Assembly: GCA_003451675.1 (NCBI GenBank) | Contig: DMCY01000006.1 | Coordinates: 1 to 54,954 of the forward strand | DNA from: Candidatus Atribacteria bacterium | GTDB lineage: Bacteria; Atribacterota; JS1; SB-45; 34-128 | Direction: 5' to 3' | DNA: 54,954 nucleotides | Shown: one piece after another, positions 881-15,294 of the stretch | How positions within the stretch are numbered: position 1 is the stretch's first letter | Layout: the number at the start of each line of letters is the position of its first letter | Made by a program: the position numbers and the translations under genes | The notes under the pieces: model-generated | The model's database searches: none | What the model saw: only the letters and a program-made list of their open reading frames with translations | Told to the model about the DNA's origin: nothing

Positions 881-2560
881 TTAAACTTCTTCCGCTTTCT
901 TCACTTTAAGTTCAGGCAGAGGAAAGGAAATTCCCGCTGATTTTGCAGATATCGATGAAAATAGGTAAAGCAGAATTCCTACTAATATTATCCCTAAAGG
1001 TAATACCAAAGCTACTGACATTCCAGTTCCTGCCAGGATATAGCCCAATATAGCAACTCCTGCGGCAGTGAGGGCATAAGGTATCTGAGTCTTAACATGA
1101 TCTATATGATCAGAACCAGAGAACATTGAAGACATTATAGTAGTATCAGAAAGCGGTGAACAATGATCTCCCATAACCGAACCGGTCAACACTGCAGATA
1201 TGCCCAAAGGTAAAGGTACGCCCAAAGCTAAAGCTAAAGGAATAGCAATAGGCATAGCTATAGCCATGGTCCCCCAGGAAGTACCGGTAGAAAAAGAAAT
1301 AACATTACAGATTAAAAACATAACCATAGGTAGTAAAATTGGAGAGATAACTCCTTTGGCGGCATTTACTACATAAGGAGCAGTTCCGATACCGTCACAA
1401 ACACTACCTATTGACCAGGCGGAAATTAAAATCAAGTTAGCCAGAACCATCATCTTGGCTCCGTCTATAAAGGCGTCCATCATATCAGCTAAAGTTCCAA
1501 TCCCCTGGGCTTTATACATTAATATAGCTGTGATTACAGCAAACATAGCTCCCCATAAAAGGGCGGTCATAGCATCCGCATCAGAAATTGCGGCAGTAAA
1601 TGATTCAGCGGAAGTACCTCCACCAGTCCACCACATTCCAAATATACTAACTGCCACCAGTACCACAATAGGCACTACCATATTTGCAGTCTTCTGGGGT
1701 ACATCTTCTAATACTTTTAATTTGCTTCCGCCGGAAAGCGGGGTTGCTCCGTCTGCAAATACTTTGCCAGTAGTCCTTGTTCGATGTTCAGCTTTTAACA
1801 TAGGTCCATAATCTCTTTGAGACAAGGCAATAGCAAGGACTAATATTATAGCAAAGATACTGTAGAATCGATAAGGTATTGATTGTAAAAAGATGGTGTA
1901 AGGAGTTAAAGATACCGAAGTGCCTTCTATAGCATCGCCAATAAGCCCCACCTCATACCCAACCCACGTAGAAATTAGAGCTAAAGAAGCTACCGGTGCA
2001 GCTGTGGAATCGACAATGTAAGAGAATTTTTCTCGAGAAATCCCCAATTTATCGGTTACTGGCATAAAGGCATTACCTACTATTGCAGTATTAGCATAAT
2101 CATCAAAGAAAATTATTAATCCAAATAGCCAAGCAGTAAATTGCCCGCCACGAGCAGTTTTTACTTTATCAGTTATACTTTTAACAAAGGCTTGAGCACC
2201 GCCAGAAAGATAGATTAAACCGATAAGCCCACCGATTACGAAGTCAAATAGTAAGATAGTAGCATTCCAACTATCAGCAGTATTTTCTACCAGATAACCT
2301 AAAGTCTTAGTAACACCGCCTATGGGATTCCAACCTGTCAGAATGGTAGCACCTACCCATATACCTATAAAAAGAGAAGCTAAAACTTGTTTAGTTAAAA
2401 AACAAAGAACAATAGCTACCAATGGTGGTAATAAAGATAAAAAACCATAACTTGCTGCAGTTTCTTCTTCTGCAGCCCAGACTATACCAGATAAGGCAAA
2501 GAAAATAAATATTAACAAAGTCAATAACAATGCATTTTTGTACTTGTTCCAATGATACAT
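881..2560 (-). CDS. NhaC-family antiporter, possible lysine transporter
   Basis: This 559-residue integral membrane protein has a signal-like first helix and many hydrophobic segments, as expected for the NhaC family. Family marks include GDHCSPLSDTTIMSS near residue 475 and FFDDYANTAIVGNAFMPV near 150. NhaC proteins exchange Na+ and H+, but members under lysine riboswitches are considered lysine transporters. It is the last gene of a leftward unit that begins with a lysine riboswitch at 6893-7067, so lysine or a related amino acid is a reasonable substrate here. AAGGAGAG precedes the ATG. A strong hairpin terminator follows 30 nt after the stop. Substrate is inferred from context only. Confidence 0.85.
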   Translation of the reverse strand: MYHWNKYKNALLLTLLIFIFFALSGIVWAAEEETAASYGFLSLLPPLVAIVLCFLTKQVLASLFIGIWVGATILTGWNPIGGVTKTLGYLVENTADSWNATILLFDFVIGGLIGLIYLSGGAQAFVKSITDKVKTARGGQFTAWLFGLIIFFDDYANTAIVGNAFMPVTDKLGISREKFSYIVDSTAAPVASLALISTWVGYEVGLIGDAIEGTSVSLTPYTIFLQSIPYRFYSIFAIILVLAIALSQRDYGPMLKAEHRTRTTGKVFADGATPLSGGSKLKVLEDVPQKTANMVVPIVVLVAVSIFGMWWTGGGTSAESFTAAISDADAMTALLWGAMFAVITAILMYKAQGIGTLADMMDAFIDGAKMMVLANLILISAWSIGSVCDGIGTAPYVVNAAKGVISPILLPMVMFLICNVISFSTGTSWGTMAIAMPIAIPLALALGVPLPLGISAVLTGSVMGDHCSPLSDTTIMSSMFSGSDHIDHVKTQIPYALTAAGVAILGYILAGTGMSVALVLPLGIILVGILLYLFSSISAKSAGISFPLPELKVKKAEEV

Positions 2561-2649: not shown

Positions 2650-3975
2650 TCACCTCCTGTTCTTAATTTTTTGACTCAAGACTTCCTCCAAATTCGGCCT
2701 ACCAATTTCCTGCAAATCATATTTTACTCTTACTGATTTCTTATTAATTTTGATAATTCGGGACAAATTAATAGGGGTACCAATAATTACCATGTCGCAA
2801 TCAACAGCATTTATAGTATCTTCCAGTTCCTGAATCTGTTTTTTCCCATACCCCATTGCAGGCAATAATGTCCCTATTCCAGGATATTTTGTATAAGTAT
2901 CTTTGATAGTCCCCACTGCGTAAGGGCGGGGATCTATAATCTCTTTTGCGCCAAACTTTTGAGCAGCCACCACTCCGGCACCATATTTCATCTCGCCATG
3001 AGTCAAAGTAGGACCGTCCTCTACTACCAGGACTCTTTTACCTCTAATAAATTCAGGATGGTCTACAGTTAAAGGAGAAGCAGCGTCTACCACTATTGCA
3101 TTCGGGGCTAATTTATGAATATTCTCTCTTAGTAAATTTATTTTATCCGGATTAGCAGTATCTATTTTATTAATTACTACAACATCCGCCATTCTGAGAT
3201 TAGCCTCTCCGGGATAATAAGTCATTTCGTGTCCTGCTCGGTGGGGATCAGTTACTACAATATGTAAATCCGGTTGATAAAAAGGTAAGTCGTTATTTCC
3301 TCCATCCCAGACAATTATATCCACATCTTTTTCGGCTCTGGTTAATATTTCTTGATAATCTACTCCGGCATAAAGGATGTTACCTCTATCCAGATGGGGT
3401 TCATATTCTTCTCTTTCTTCAATAGTACAATTATAACGATCTAAATCAGCATAGGTCTCATATCTTTGCCAGATTTGCTCTCTAAGGTCACCATAGGGCA
3501 TAGGATGCCTGATTACGGCAATTTTGTAGCCTATCTCCTTTAATATTTCGCTAACCTTACGAGTAGTTTGACTTTTCCCGCAACCGGTGCGAACAGCACA
3601 TATTGATACTACCGGAACCTTAGACTTTAACATAGTGTTCTTTGGTCCCATTAATCTAAAGTCAGCTCCACTCGCTAACACGATTGATGCTTTATCCATA
3701 ACATACTGATGGAGAAGATCACTATAAGCTAAAATTACCTGGTCTATCTGTTTTTCCCTTATTAAATCGGGTAATTCTTCTTCTGAATATATGGAAATAC
3801 CTTCAGGATATAAAGGGCCGGAAAGTTCAACAGGATACTTTCTATCAGCGATATCCGGGATTTGAGTAGCAGTGAAAGCAACTACCTCGTAACCTGAATT
3901 ATTTCTAAAATATACATTGAAATTGTGAAAATCTCTCCCAGCAGCTCCCATTATGATGACTTTAATTTTACTCAC
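2650..3975 (-). CDS. Cyclic 2,3-diphosphoglycerate synthetase-like P-loop protein
   Basis: This 441-residue protein has an N-terminal Rossmann-like part (MGAAGRDFHNFNVYF) and a P-loop AVRTGCGKSQTTRKV near residue 130. Further GTPase-type segments follow: VVINKID near 265 (NKxD-like) and VVEDGPTLTHGEM near 320. It matches the family annotated as cyclic 2,3-diphosphoglycerate synthetase or predicted GTPase (COG2403). In bacteria that do not make cDPG the role is unknown, and genes of this family often lie near carbamate kinase and nitrogen-compound catabolism. Here it sits between a class III aminotransferase and NhaC, 89-nt and 88-nt gaps, in the lysine-riboswitch unit. The enzyme assignment should be read as family only. 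Confidence 0.75.
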   Translation of the reverse strand: MSKIKVIIMGAAGRDFHNFNVYFRNNSGYEVVAFTATQIPDIADRKYPVELSGPLYPEGISIYSEEELPDLIREKQIDQVILAYSDLLHQYVMDKASIVLASGADFRLMGPKNTMLKSKVPVVSICAVRTGCGKSQTTRKVSEILKEIGYKIAVIRHPMPYGDLREQIWQRYETYADLDRYNCTIEEREEYEPHLDRGNILYAGVDYQEILTRAEKDVDIIVWDGGNNDLPFYQPDLHIVVTDPHRAGHEMTYYPGEANLRMADVVVINKIDTANPDKINLLRENIHKLAPNAIVVDAASPLTVDHPEFIRGKRVLVVEDGPTLTHGEMKYGAGVVAAQKFGAKEIIDPRPYAVGTIKDTYTKYPGIGTLLPAMGYGKKQIQELEDTINAVDCDMVIIGTPINLSRIIKINKKSVRVKYDLQEIGRPNLEEVLSQKIKNRR

Positions 3976-4063: not shown

Positions 4064-5368
4064 TCACACCTTAGCTACTGCCTTCTCCAATACGTCTAAG
4101 GCCTTATCTAACTGCTCATCGGTAATCTCTAGGGAGACTAACATTCTAAGAAGGTTTTTATTGATTCCGGCAGTGGCAATAAATACTCCGTTCTTTATGC
4201 ATTCCTGAACAATCCGGGTTGTTTCCTGAGGGGCCGGTTCTTTAGTTTTTTGGTCTTTTACCAATTCTACAGCCATCATCGCTCCTATACCACGAATCTC
4301 TCCTATTAGTGAATATTTATCCTTCATCTTAAGGAACCGCTCTTTTAATTTTTCTCCGATCTTTAGAGCTCGGTCTAAGAGGTGCTCTTCTTCGATAATC
4401 TTTATCACCTCCAGGGCTGCCCGGCAGGCTACCGGGTTACCTACATAGGTTCCTCCGATACATCCTCCGGGGAGGGTATCGGTGATCTCTTTTTTGGCGA
4501 TCACTGCCGAAAGAGGCAGACCGGCAGCTAAAGATTTAGCCAAACAGATAAGGTCTGGTTCTATACCCCAATTTTCTATGGCAAAAAACCTTCCGGTTCG
4601 GCCTATACCACTTTGAATCTCATCGATTACCAGTAACATACTATATTTATTAGTTAGTTTTCTTAAGTATTCTAAAAATCCCTTCTGAGGGACATTAAAC
4701 CCTCCTTCTCCCTGGATAGGTTCGACCACTATAGCGGCCACGGAGTCGGGGGTAACGGTATTTATTAGTACCTTTTCAAAATCCTCTATGTTAGTTACAG
4801 GATTAGAAGAACTCGGGAAGGGTAGTCGGTATATTTCGGGGGCAAAGGGTCCGAAGTGGTACTTGTAGGGCATAGCCTTATGGGTCATGGTCATAGTAAG
4901 TAAGGTGCGGCCGTGGAAAGCGTTTTCAAAGACGATGATAGCCGGTCTTTTGGTATAGGCCCGGGCAATCTTTACCGCATTTTCTACTGCTTCTGCACCG
5001 GAGTTAAAAAAGGCAGCTGCTTTGGGAGTATTCCCGGGGGCCAACTTTACCAGTTTCTCAGCCAGTTCTACTAGAGATTCATAGGGGACAGCGGTGAAAT
5101 CGGTATGCAGATACTTTTCTGCCTGGTCTTTAACTGCGGCTACCACTTTCTTATGGGTATGTCCTACGGCCAGACATCCCCACCCTCCGGTAAGGTCGAT
5201 AAACTGATTACCGTCTACATCAGTAACCAATGCTCCCTCACCATGGGCAATATAACAGGGAGAAAGGGAGCTACCCATCGGTTTAGCGATATATTTTTCT
5301 CTTCTTTTGGCAATTTTTTTAGACTTTGGCCCGGGTAAACTGGTTTTAAGGGAAATGAATTTGGTCAT
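4064..5368 (-). CDS. Class III PLP aminotransferase (GabT/ArgD/LysN-like)
   Basis: The 434-residue protein carries the full class III (ornithine/4-aminobutyrate) signature. HGRTLLTMTMTHK is the phosphate-cup region, VVEPIQGEGGF precedes the cofactor Asp motif LLVIDEIQSGIGRTG, and LAKSLAAGLPLSAVI contains the Schiff-base Lys near residue 278. Length is normal. Such enzymes move omega- or alpha-amino groups from GABA, ornithine, lysine or 2-aminoadipate. Placement behind a lysine riboswitch and a saccharopine-dehydrogenase-like gene favours lysine, 2-aminoadipate or 2-aminoadipate semialdehyde as substrate, but sequence alone does not decide. Codon use is noticeably more GC-rich than in neighbours. 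Confidence 0.85.
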   Translation of the reverse strand: MTKFISLKTSLPGPKSKKIAKRREKYIAKPMGSSLSPCYIAHGEGALVTDVDGNQFIDLTGGWGCLAVGHTHKKVVAAVKDQAEKYLHTDFTAVPYESLVELAEKLVKLAPGNTPKAAAFFNSGAEAVENAVKIARAYTKRPAIIVFENAFHGRTLLTMTMTHKAMPYKYHFGPFAPEIYRLPFPSSSNPVTNIEDFEKVLINTVTPDSVAAIVVEPIQGEGGFNVPQKGFLEYLRKLTNKYSMLLVIDEIQSGIGRTGRFFAIENWGIEPDLICLAKSLAAGLPLSAVIAKKEITDTLPGGCIGGTYVGNPVACRAALEVIKIIEEEHLLDRALKIGEKLKERFLKMKDKYSLIGEIRGIGAMMAVELVKDQKTKEPAPQETTRIVQECIKNGVFIATAGINKNLLRMLVSLEITDEQLDKALDVLEKAVAKV

Positions 5369-5467: not shown

Positions 5468-6712
5468 TTATATCTTCTTGGAAACCTCAAGTATATTTAT
5501 CTTTCTCCTCTTCAACTCTTCCAAGAAGTTTTCATAAATTTTCCCTTCTATAGCATCTTCGGGAGCTACTATCCCTTTCCTGGTTATCTCTCCTTTTCCC
5601 AACATTACTGTGGCAATAGCTTCCGGGAAAGCGGTAACTCTCCCCATGGCAGAAATACCATTTTCAGTATCTGCTTCTTCCCACATATAATAATCAATCC
5701 TCATCTTCCGGCCATCTTTCATCCCGGTAACCGTATTCCACATTACACAGACATCAGTTTCACTCTCTAATGGTTGAAGTTTGGGAGTCATTACATGGGA
5801 TAAAAATTCACGAGGAGATATCTTTATTCCTTTAAATTCTATCTGGGTAGAATTTAACATCCCACATTCCTTTAATACTTTCGCTCCCTCCCAATGACCC
5901 GGCCAACGGATAGTTTTTTCCGCACATTCTTTAAGTTGTGCTCTCGTATAAAGAAAGCTGGGCATTCCCGGAGTAATAGCACAGGCTAATTCCTCATCTT
6001 TTCCTAACTGGTTAAATCGAAATTTTTCAAGATCATCCATTGCGTTTGCTTCTACAATTTTACCATTTTTAATTACATCTACCTTAATCATATATTCTCT
6101 TAATACATGCTCAAAAGCCCAGGTGATCATATATTTCAAGGGATGTTTGTGGGCAAATTCTTTAGCCGGAACACCTCCACATCTGGCTATAGCCGATTCT
6201 GCCTGGTCCATTTTCTTGATACCTTCACCTAAAGTAATATTAGTTAATCCGGGGGCAAAACCCATTCCATCAATAAAGGTTACTCCATTTTTTATTGCTT
6301 TTTGGTGAAGTGATTCTCCGTATTCATCCAAGGTCATCCCATTGGGAATTTCTAAACCTTCAACCTCGTATTTATCCGGTTTCCTATGATATTCTTCTAA
6401 TATATCCACAATATTTAGTCCAGCGTCAATAGCCATATCCACCACTTTATAACTACACTTTCTGTTGGGTAAGGTAATGGCGCCTACATCATATTTTTCC
6501 ATTAATTTCGTGGTTTCTTTACGATTATTTACATCAATAGTATGGAGCACTATCTTATCACTGTTTATCCATTTTTTAGTCTTTTCCAGTGTATTCTCTC
6601 TCCTACCGGTAATTCCTATAATTCCTACTTCTCCAACTTTGTTATTTTTGGCTAAATCCCAGGCAACAGCAGAACCCATCTTTCCCGAGCCTCCGAAAAC
6701 TAAAACCTTCAT
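5468..6712 (-). CDS. Saccharopine dehydrogenase-family oxidoreductase
   Basis: A 414-residue protein opening with the nucleotide-binding loop GGSGKMGSAVAWDLAKN at residue 7. The central and C-terminal parts fit the saccharopine reductase/lysine 6-dehydrogenase fold (for example FIDGMGFAPGLTNITLGEGI near 150). It is the first gene after the lysine riboswitch and its attenuator hairpin, about 110 nt downstream of the hairpin, which ties it to lysine metabolism. Possible reactions are saccharopine formation or cleavage, or lysine 6-dehydrogenation. A paralogue with a different opening lies upstream at 7181-8317; the two are clearly divergent rather than recent duplicates. Confidence 0.8.
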   Translation of the reverse strand: MKVLVFGGSGKMGSAVAWDLAKNNKVGEVGIIGITGRRENTLEKTKKWINSDKIVLHTIDVNNRKETTKLMEKYDVGAITLPNRKCSYKVVDMAIDAGLNIVDILEEYHRKPDKYEVEGLEIPNGMTLDEYGESLHQKAIKNGVTFIDGMGFAPGLTNITLGEGIKKMDQAESAIARCGGVPAKEFAHKHPLKYMITWAFEHVLREYMIKVDVIKNGKIVEANAMDDLEKFRFNQLGKDEELACAITPGMPSFLYTRAQLKECAEKTIRWPGHWEGAKVLKECGMLNSTQIEFKGIKISPREFLSHVMTPKLQPLESETDVCVMWNTVTGMKDGRKMRIDYYMWEEADTENGISAMGRVTAFPEAIATVMLGKGEITRKGIVAPEDAIEGKIYENFLEELKRRKINILEVSKKI

Positions 6713-6823
6713 ATGTTCTTCCTCCTTCTTTGGTTACTTAGTTAACCCGTTAGTTAATTTTTACAAGATAAGTTGTAAGCCTATCTGATAAAAAAATATC
6801 ATTTGAAAACATCTACAAAATGA

Positions 6824-6863
6824 AATAGGCAATTAATGATAGAGTCTTCATTAATTGCCTATT
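6824..6863 (-). terminator. Attenuator hairpin of the lysine riboswitch
   Basis: A 16-bp perfect stem (AATAGGCAATTAATGA with TCATTAATTGCCTATT, 8-nt loop) lies 29 nt downstream of the aptamer on the minus strand and is followed by a T-rich tract. An alternative pairing is visible: GGTAGAGT just 3' of the aptamer (about 6886-6893) can pair with ACTCTATC, which covers the hairpin loop and the start of its 3' arm. With TTAA pairing across a one-base bulge this would also invade the last bases of P1, giving an antiterminator. This fits lysine-dependent termination, although the overlap with P1 is small. Confidence 0.8.
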
Positions 6864-6892
6864 ATTTCCCCTTTTTAGATGAAGTACTCTAC

Positions 6893-7067
6893 CTTAAGGC
6901 AGCGCTCCATCTAAATCCGGGGTCGGATTTGATGACAGTCTTATAGTTATTCACTATAAGCCCAGCAAAAAAATTTAATATAACCTTTTTGCTTCGGCGG
7001 AAATACCTTTCAAGATGAATTAATTTTTTTCACCTTTACTCATTATTATCCGCGCCTCTACCTTGCA
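6893..7067 (-). promoter_or_regulatory. Lysine riboswitch (L-box) aptamer
   Basis: Read on the minus strand, the conserved blocks of the L-box appear in order: AAGGTAGAGGCGCGG, then CGCCGAAGC, TGCTGGGC, GACTGTCAT, and finally GGAGCGCTGCCTT. P1 forms between AAGGTAG (5') and CTGCCTT (3'); AGCAAAAA and TTTTTTTGCT form another helix; ATCCGACCCCGGAT closes a further one. All core motifs are present, so the aptamer looks functional. It precedes an attenuator hairpin and the saccharopine-dehydrogenase-like gene starting at 6712, making lysine the sensed ligand for the leftward unit ending at nhaC. Confidence 0.95.
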
Positions 7068-7073
7068 TTGTTT

Positions 7074-7101
7074 TAAATACAAGTAAATATTAATTTGTAA
7101 A
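7074..7101 (-). promoter_or_regulatory. Candidate sigma-A promoter of the riboswitch transcript
   Basis: On the minus strand TTTACA (7096-7101) and TATTTA (7074-7079) are separated by 16 nt. Transcription would start near 7067, exactly at the 5' strand of the riboswitch P1 helix, which supports the call. The region is AT-rich so chance matches are possible. Confidence 0.45.
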
Positions 7102-7180
7102 AATTATTTTAGTTGACTTAAATAATTAAATTACCACCTCCTCATTAATTTGACATTGAGTAATTTGCCAATTAATTAAA

Positions 7181-8317
7181 TTATATCTCAACTATATTTT
7201 CTTTATAAAATACATTTCTTTTTTCTAATTCTTTCATTTCTTTTTTATATACTTTGCGTTCTCTCCCTATATATTCTGGCGGACAGACTCCTGGGCATTT
7301 GAATTCTCCTTGAGCAACCAACCTGGCCATAATCGCACAGGGAAACCCGGTAGCGCGAGACATAGAAGTAGCTTTTTCATTCTTGTCGTAATAATCCAAT
7401 AAATCATAGGTATATCTTAATTCTTTCCCTTCTTTTTTCCCCTGAACAATTACCTGCATAACGGTTAGCTCTTCTTCCCCTTCTTCTAATTCCCATTTAG
7501 GGAAGAGGAGCTTAGAGGTAAGGTCTATGGGTTTAACTTTTGCTCCTCCTACTTCTATAGGTATATCACTGAAAAATCCGGTTTCTCTAAACATCCGCAT
7601 CTTTTCAGCATAACCCGGATAACGCAAGGTCTTCTCTTTCATAGAAGGGATTTTAAGAGTATAAAGTAAGCTACGAAGTCCATCAGTATTAAAGGCCTCT
7701 AAAGTTCCAATCTTGGGTAAATCAACCAATTCCAAATCAGAAAGAGCAGGTTTTTCTACAATTTTTCCTCCTTCTATTAATCTTGCCGGTCTTATATATT
7801 CTTCTATAACATCTTTGGGAGACCAGGCAATCTTGTATTCATAAGGCCATTCCCTTATCACCGGAAGCCCTCCTACTAAAATAGTAGCACTTTCAGTTTC
7901 GTCTAACAGGCTATTGATATAACCTACAATCATATGACTCATTCCGGGGGCAACTCCCATATCCACTACGGCGGTAACCTTTCTCTCTTTGGCAAGTTCA
8001 TCCAAACTCAAAGTATCTTCAGCCATAAAAGATATATCGACTATGTTCTTGCCGGCTTCAATAACTGACCGTAACATATTAAATCCTAAAAATCCCGGGA
8101 CGGCACCGATTACTATATCTTTATCAGCAACTATCTTTTTGATAGCTTTCGAATCAGATAAATTTGCCTTTACTCCTTGTATGCCTGCCTCTTTAGCTAA
8201 TTTCTCTAATTTTTTCTCATCAATATCTGCTACAGTTACTTGAAAATCTTTATCTTTTGCCAAATCTTTGGCAATTAATCCACCTACCAAACCACAACCC
8301 AGCACTATTGCTTTCAT
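7181..8317 (-). CDS. Saccharopine dehydrogenase / lysine 6-dehydrogenase-like oxidoreductase
   Basis: A 378-residue NAD(P)-dependent enzyme beginning MKAIVLGCGLVGGLIAKDL, a classic GxGxxG Rossmann loop, with the acidic VTVADIDEKKL strand end at about residue 30 that suggests NAD preference. AVVDMGVAPGMSHMIVGYI near 117 is typical of the family. The compact length resembles lysine 6-dehydrogenases (about 385 residues) as well as bacterial saccharopine-reductase-like proteins. It follows the MmgE/PrpD gene by 22 nt and precedes the riboswitch promoter, so it belongs to the organic-acid cluster and is not under the riboswitch. Substrate unknown; lysine, 2-aminoadipate semialdehyde or a related amino acid is inferred. 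Confidence 0.75.
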   Translation of the reverse strand: MKAIVLGCGLVGGLIAKDLAKDKDFQVTVADIDEKKLEKLAKEAGIQGVKANLSDSKAIKKIVADKDIVIGAVPGFLGFNMLRSVIEAGKNIVDISFMAEDTLSLDELAKERKVTAVVDMGVAPGMSHMIVGYINSLLDETESATILVGGLPVIREWPYEYKIAWSPKDVIEEYIRPARLIEGGKIVEKPALSDLELVDLPKIGTLEAFNTDGLRSLLYTLKIPSMKEKTLRYPGYAEKMRMFRETGFFSDIPIEVGGAKVKPIDLTSKLLFPKWELEEGEEELTVMQVIVQGKKEGKELRYTYDLLDYYDKNEKATSMSRATGFPCAIMARLVAQGEFKCPGVCPPEYIGRERKVYKKEMKELEKRNVFYKENIVEI

Positions 8318-15186: not shown

Positions 15187-15294
15187 TATATATATCTCCT
15201 CACTTTTACTAACAATTTTCATCCTTTAATTACTCGCTTGCATTTTTCTTAATCCTCGAGCTATTTTTTTATTCTTCCCCTGCCTATTAGAATC

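Follow-up and report, generated by a model that had tools for sequence, protein, structure and literature searches.

We analysed a 54,954-nucleotide (nt) stretch of DNA from a Candidatus Atribacteria bacterium (contig DMCY01000006.1, positions 1–54,954; hereafter the window), a member of the Atribacterota, a little-cultured group of anaerobes. The leader at 7068–6824 on the minus strand is probably a transcriptional lysine-ON riboswitch, which would control SDH1, the downstream gene for a likely lysine 6-dehydrogenase. The leader combines a covariance match to the lysine aptamer (L-box), a terminator-like hairpin and competing complementarities that show conservation and covariation among related leaders, and it contrasts with the L-box leaders of lysA and NhaC genes. 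Its elements are as follows:

6892..7068, minus strand: lysine riboswitch aptamer (L-box, RF00168), covariance match over the full model
7058..7063, minus strand: P1 5′ strand (partner 6902–6897), from the Rfam alignment, model positions 6–11
6897..6902, minus strand: P1 3′ strand, from the Rfam alignment and folding coordinates
6905..6915, extendable to 6922, minus strand: P5 3′ strand with part of J5/1, doubling as the anti-aptamer 5′ strand
6879..6891, minus strand: segment X, immediately 3′ of P1, the 5′ strand of the antiterminator
6874..6884, extendable to 6868, minus strand: anti-aptamer 3′ strand, inside segment X
6840..6851, minus strand: antiterminator 3′ strand, the end of the terminator 5′ arm and the loop
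6824..6863, minus strand: intrinsic terminator-like hairpin of 16 pairs with a loop of 8

The lysine riboswitch RF00168 was the single Rfam match in the whole window, scoring 116.4 bits (gathering cut-off, 30 bits; E value 1.8e-30) at 7068–6892 on the minus strand and covering model positions 1–182 of 182. The covariance search that the first-pass annotation had proposed as a check of its L-box, placed by that annotation on the minus strand at 6893–7067, was thus significant. Judged by its sequence, the window leader is a genuine lysine riboswitch motif, predicted to bind lysine. For comparison we assembled 12 SDH1 leaders (11 plus the window) and 24 other L-box leaders (lysA, NhaC or other). 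The aptamers of the SDH1 leaders scored 98.5–118.6 bits against RF00168, and their P2 region was shorter than in the 24 others (57–61 nt versus 63–73 nt); GAGC/GCUC words in the P2 and P3 regions, sought by word search and not by structure, occurred in 0 of 12 SDH1 leaders versus 22 of 24 others. Some lysine riboswitch variants are described, in the available part of PMC2258182, as having no P2 K-turn, and SDH1-type aptamers would therefore remain inside the lysine riboswitch class.

In the proposed mechanism, P1 and P5 would stay folded in the presence of lysine; X would then be available for pairing with the 5′ arm of the terminator, allowing the polymerase to continue into SDH1. Without lysine, X, once transcribed, would quickly fold back on J5/1 and the P5 3′ strand, which would undo the aptamer, take away the antiterminator strand and let the terminator form. 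The aptamer would exclude the anti-aptamer, the anti-aptamer the antiterminator, and the antiterminator the terminator, one step beyond the lysA leaders, in which the P1 3′ strand would itself be the antiterminator and lysine should repress. The proposed switching helix, P5–J5/1, lies on what we take to be the binding-pocket side of the aptamer. Lysine binding, its cotranscriptional timing, the direction of control in the cell and the activity of SDH1 are predictions of this model.

Segment X has the two partners that the model needs: the P5 3′ strand with J5/1, forming the anti-aptamer (6915–6905 with 6884–6874 in the window, longer in several leaders), and the terminator 5′ arm, forming the antiterminator. 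In 10 of 12 SDH1 leaders, none of 400 dinucleotide shuffles equalled the duplex of the P5 3′ strand with X; for the duplex of X with the terminator arm, 0–46 of 400 shuffles were as good. Partition-function folds of the pre-terminator transcript contained 16–24 anti-aptamer pairs in all 12 SDH1 leaders, with P1 and P5 at 0.01 or below; in the 24 other leaders there were at most 2.1 such pairs, and the anti-aptamer was dominant in none. We then imposed P1 and P5 on transcripts of increasing length, up to and through the terminator, and averaged the pairs. The forced aptamer raised the antiterminator pairs in 12 of 12 SDH1 leaders (median +9.5; window +2.3) and lowered the terminator pairs by more than 0.5 in nine of them, compared with 0 of the 24 others. 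Among those 24, antiterminator pairs fell by more than 0.5 in 20, changed little in three and rose in one (G068), and terminator pairs rose by more than 0.5 in 18. By folding, the bound aptamer was compatible with antitermination, and the free fold was not, in every SDH1 leader.

The same comparison bears on the possibility that the window holds an ordinary L-box OFF switch, in which lysine would form P1, the terminator would follow and an uptake or synthesis operon would be repressed. OFF is the usual sign of L-boxes, as in B. subtilis and E. coli (PMC11477304, in the part available), and the lysA/NhaC leaders have the customary OFF arrangement, their P1 3′ strand being able to base-pair with the 5′ arm and loop of the terminator. 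In the SDH1 leader of G001 this pairing was better than 399 of 400 shuffles, but in 11 of 12 SDH1 leaders it lay in the shuffle range (50–302 of 400 as good); in the window 162 of 400 shuffles were as good, and by this test its P1 3′ strand does not supply the antiterminator. That duplex is a weak test when used alone, since it was modest even in the 24 other leaders (3–209 of 400 as good), and it is the forced aptamer that separates the leader groups. The antiterminator strand of the SDH1 leaders lies outside P1, so P1 and the antiterminator can coexist, and the rise of antiterminator pairs under a forced aptamer in all 12 tells against an OFF switch. Counting against lysine-ON control, NhaC–GTPase–AOR genes sit behind OFF-type L-boxes in G013 (locus L119, where the aminotransferase gene AT3 described below is also present), G006 (L120) and G010 (L121), and the same genes are thus predicted to stand under L-boxes of opposite sign in different lineages. 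Taken together, we regard an OFF switch in the window as improbable.

Sequence variation among the 12 SDH1 leaders also favours the anti-aptamer of the ON design. RNAalifold, given their alignment, selected this helix unprompted. Over its 14 pairs, 94.0% of cells were paired versus 86.2% in 500 shuffles (0/500), and sliding the strands gave no more than 58.3%; double-change cells numbered 10 versus 3.5 (0/500), the covariation score was 0.299 versus 0.183 (0/500), and five pairs had changed on both sides (20/500 shuffles). The double changes in the outer pairs came from G003, G027, G006 and G007. Native duplexes of the P5 3′ strand with X averaged −22.1 kcal/mol versus −11.5 kcal/mol for cross-clade combinations (n = 36), and those of X with the terminator averaged −13.4 versus −9.3. 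For the antiterminator, 97.2% of cells were paired, against a maximum of 49.3% after sliding, and the helix was nearly invariant.

Several results weigh against lysine-ON switching. The structures had been derived from the very sequences that were counted, which favours such counts; further pair types in the anti-aptamer were not above shuffles (11 versus 9.8; 120/500), and double changes in its core came only from the close relatives G006 and G007. The antiterminator showed one double-change pair and no excess of covariation over shuffles (140/500), and one cross-clade duplex of X with the terminator, at −16.0, was stronger than the native mean. Two leaders departed from the rest in the duplex of the P5 3′ strand with X (G072, 1/400; G005, 108/400, no better than shuffles). 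In the window and G039, antiterminator pairs were kept in both states at the loop-end length, where the window's margin for the ON design was small, and switching in the window may therefore be weaker than in its relatives. At full length the terminator prevailed in either state in 9 of 11 SDH1 leaders (the exceptions were G003 and G039; G001 was left out), as it did in all 24 others. From 24 nt past the aptamer onwards, the forced aptamer lay 0.9–22.4 kcal/mol above the free fold (window, 4.2–7.4). Equilibrium folding by itself, as modelled here, fails to separate the two states; because the aptamer is costlier than the free fold, control would have to be kinetic and cotranscriptional, with lysine capturing the aptamer before X emerges. 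The U-tract of the window terminator is moreover interrupted (TCATTTTGTA).

Such a broken U-tract, a terminator favoured at equilibrium and the few lineages concerned (the 12 SDH1 leaders fall into three groups) would also fit a leader that does not switch, one in which the L-box has decayed, the hairpin is fortuitous and the operon is under other control. The shuffle, slide and cross-clade controls speak otherwise, the anti-aptamer helix is missing in the 24 sister leaders, and SDH1 aptamers that had decayed would hardly still score as they do against RF00168; we consider this account very improbable.

The hairpin at 6863–6824, the 16-bp hairpin that had been noted ahead of the open reading frame (ORF) at 6712, was the sole terminator-like site found in 6700–7200 (0.2 expected by chance). 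A promoter-like pair that had been thought to set the transcript start at P1 was not confirmed: no sigma-70-like pair exceeded the threshold on the minus strand in 6700–7200, a strict threshold that a real promoter may miss. A further element lies upstream:

7062..7083, minus strand: hairpin upstream of the aptamer, its 3′ arm overlapping the P1 5′ strand

Because this hairpin overlaps the P1 5′ strand and has a counterpart in most related leaders (10 of 12 SDH1 leaders, 22 of 24 others), it suggests that the transcript starts ahead of P1. The hairpin and its equivalents could rival P1 in the ligand-free state.

To place these leaders among their relatives, L-boxes were searched in the genomes of 40 of 51 loci with SDH1 relatives; the other 11, all archaeal by title, were left out. 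L-boxes were present in 11 of the 40 (ten titled Atribacteria or Atribacterota and one, L046, titled 'bacterium', with an SDH1 93% identical) and were not found in the remaining 29; the named close relatives of SDH1 bear Atribacterota, Candidatus Atribacteria or Candidatus Caldatribacter- names. A survey of 50 genomes of the phylum to which G002 belongs yielded 37 L-boxes in 23 genomes. The first gene behind them was lysA in 15 (nine with a family or BLAST match, six from similar N-termini by eye), SDH1 in 11 and NhaC in seven, and, both by eye, a probable lysC in one and a short amidohydrolase-like ORF in one; two boxes ended at a contig end. One L-box, L057 (G013:C10), precedes short ORFs that by eye resemble pieces of an amidohydrolase. 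Of the 50 genomes, 13 had SDH1 itself (E ≤ 1e-60), directly behind an L-box in all except G010 and G013, and in six genomes (G001, G002, G005, G027, G069 and G072) L-boxes stood before both lysA and SDH1.

The leader precedes four ORFs:

5468..6712, minus strand: SDH1, saccharopine-dehydrogenase superfamily, likely lysine 6-dehydrogenase (PF03435 and PF16653)
4064..5368, minus strand: AT3, class III aminotransferase (PF00202, Aminotran_3)
2650..3975, minus strand: GTPase/CobW-like ORF, weak match (PF02492, 22.5 bits; cut-off, 20.7)
881..2560, minus strand: NhaC-superfamily transporter (Na_H_antiporter, PF03553, 229.5 bits)

The first-pass annotation had described a saccharopine-dehydrogenase/aminotransferase/NhaC unit; Pfam bore out these three genes, and the ORF at 3975–2650 between AT3 and NhaC, which matched no NCBIfam family, had been overlooked. 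The transporter passed the superfamily model PF03553 and fell below the curated cut-off of the NhaC equivalog TIGR00931 (65.7 bits against 370).

The two Pfam domains of SDH1 are common to its whole superfamily and not specific for saccharopine dehydrogenase, and SDH1 matched no NCBIfam equivalog. A first fold prediction, from ten near-identical sequences, was poor (predicted local distance difference test score, 43.9) and was not used. The solved fold closest to the SDH1 model was 3abi, the archaeal L-lysine dehydrogenase of Pyrococcus horikoshii, which among the best 15 matches led the next by 5 Z units and had the lowest root-mean-square deviation (2.1). On this structural likeness SDH1 is likely a lysine 6-dehydrogenase, and it may serve lysine breakdown. 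SDH1 is longer than 3abi (414 versus 365 residues), with extra residues near 105–130 that hold E106, H109, P112 and D113, all invariant across 45 relatives, and its residues 1–104 align only weakly with 3abi in sequence. The ON switch could hold even if SDH1 were a different member of its superfamily, for example a saccharopine dehydrogenase or carboxyspermidine dehydrogenase, with lysine as no more than a signal. The lead of 3abi speaks against this, and next to SDH1 in other phyla no recurring genes of another pathway were seen (ten neighbours scanned); we find it unlikely, if by no means negligible. Neighbours likewise gave no reading of the role of SDH1 itself, as no constant one was seen in other phyla (nine scanned). 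At the Acetothermia locus L018, AT3 lies nearby in divergent orientation.

AT3 fell below the cut-off of every NCBIfam family among the matches listed (25 of 69), including 2-aminoadipate transaminase NF049976 (387.1 bits; curated cut-off, 650) and 4-aminobutyrate transaminase TIGR00700 (501 bits; curated cut-off, 506.65). We considered and rejected AT3 as a dedicated lysine enzyme: it was found in 20 of the 50 genomes, seven without an SDH1 match, and the three adjoining ORFs scanned (about 330–390 amino acids; in G010, G076 and beside the second copy in G005) were ornithine carbamoyltransferases. Orthologues of AT3 adjoin ornithine carbamoyltransferase at L125, L128 and L129, hinting that AT3 may be an ornithine or basic-amino-acid omega-aminotransferase. 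As for the pathway, the first-pass reading of a 2-aminoadipate-type or lysine-degrading route was partly supported: degradation gained from the SDH1 fold nearest to lysine dehydrogenase 3abi, and saccharopine/2-aminoadipate biosynthesis was disfavoured by lysA. Of the 13 SDH1 genomes, eight contained a lysA match above cut-off and five had no full lysA match (a fragment in G004), genome completeness not being stated. Lysine 2,3-aminomutase fermentation was rejected as a shared alternative, with a match above cut-off in one of the 13 (G006) and weaker matches in seven more.

Upstream of the operon, at 15222–7181 on the minus strand, lies a conserved cluster that encodes, in order, AtuA-like (by eye and BLAST), DUF4387, HD, LeuC/HacA-like, LeuD-like, IDH/homoisocitrate-DH-like and MmgE/PrpD proteins and SDH2, a second lysine-dehydrogenase-like enzyme that is nearer to 3abi than SDH1. 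One idea is that this cluster might run a reversed homocitrate-type route for lysine carbon. Elsewhere on the minus strand (16346–53730), genes recognized by eye for PEPCK, hydantoinase, xanthine-dehydrogenase-like subunits, a branched-chain amino-acid ABC transporter, carbamate kinase and SelD suggest a possible purine or hydantoin breakdown.

A broader account, to which we give slightly less than an even chance, is that the sign was reversed in evolution: a copy of the P5 5′ strand inserted after P1 would act as an inverter, turning a lysA-type OFF switch into one that lysine turns ON, with a lysine dehydrogenase as its target. The aptamer would have been slimmed, losing the usual P2–P3 loop words, and six relatives would carry opposite-sign sensors on lysine synthesis and breakdown. 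With lysA leaders from the same genomes serving as an internal control, the sign of a switch becomes readable here from sequence. If true, this would show a single extra helix reversing the sign of a riboswitch and would give a first handle on lysine sensing and use in Atribacterota.

In the literature searched, none of the listed titles or abstracts described such a system, and natural lysine-ON riboswitches appeared, in the parts of the sources available, as predictions and not as demonstrated cases. Earlier work had predicted lysine-ON riboswitches ahead of other catabolic genes (PMC2258182 and PMC5584792). The target gene, the platform and the opposite-sign pairing in six genomes look new. 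The Atribacterota lysA/NhaC L-boxes share aptamer family, phylum and terminator type with the SDH1 leaders, but take their antiterminator from the P1 3′ strand, have no anti-aptamer helix (0/24) and are of opposite predicted sign. NhaC-superfamily genes (lysW/NhaC transporters) behind L-boxes are already known (PMC5584792 and PMC11477304, in part), whereas in the window NhaC is the fourth gene of an operon led by a catabolic-type dehydrogenase. According to the available part of PMC2258182, ON lysine riboswitches work by directly sequestering parts of the terminator stem, and OFF switches add a reversing element; the ON designs there carry no mention of an anti-aptamer and antiterminator chain, and the SDH1 leaders add one further element. 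The L-boxes ahead of the lysine-fermentation genes kal/kce in Thermoanaerobacter, Clostridium sticklandii and Fusobacterium nucleatum, described as positively regulated in the available part of PMC5584792, likewise set a lysine aptamer before lysine-catabolic genes; they concern other enzymes and other phyla than SDH1.
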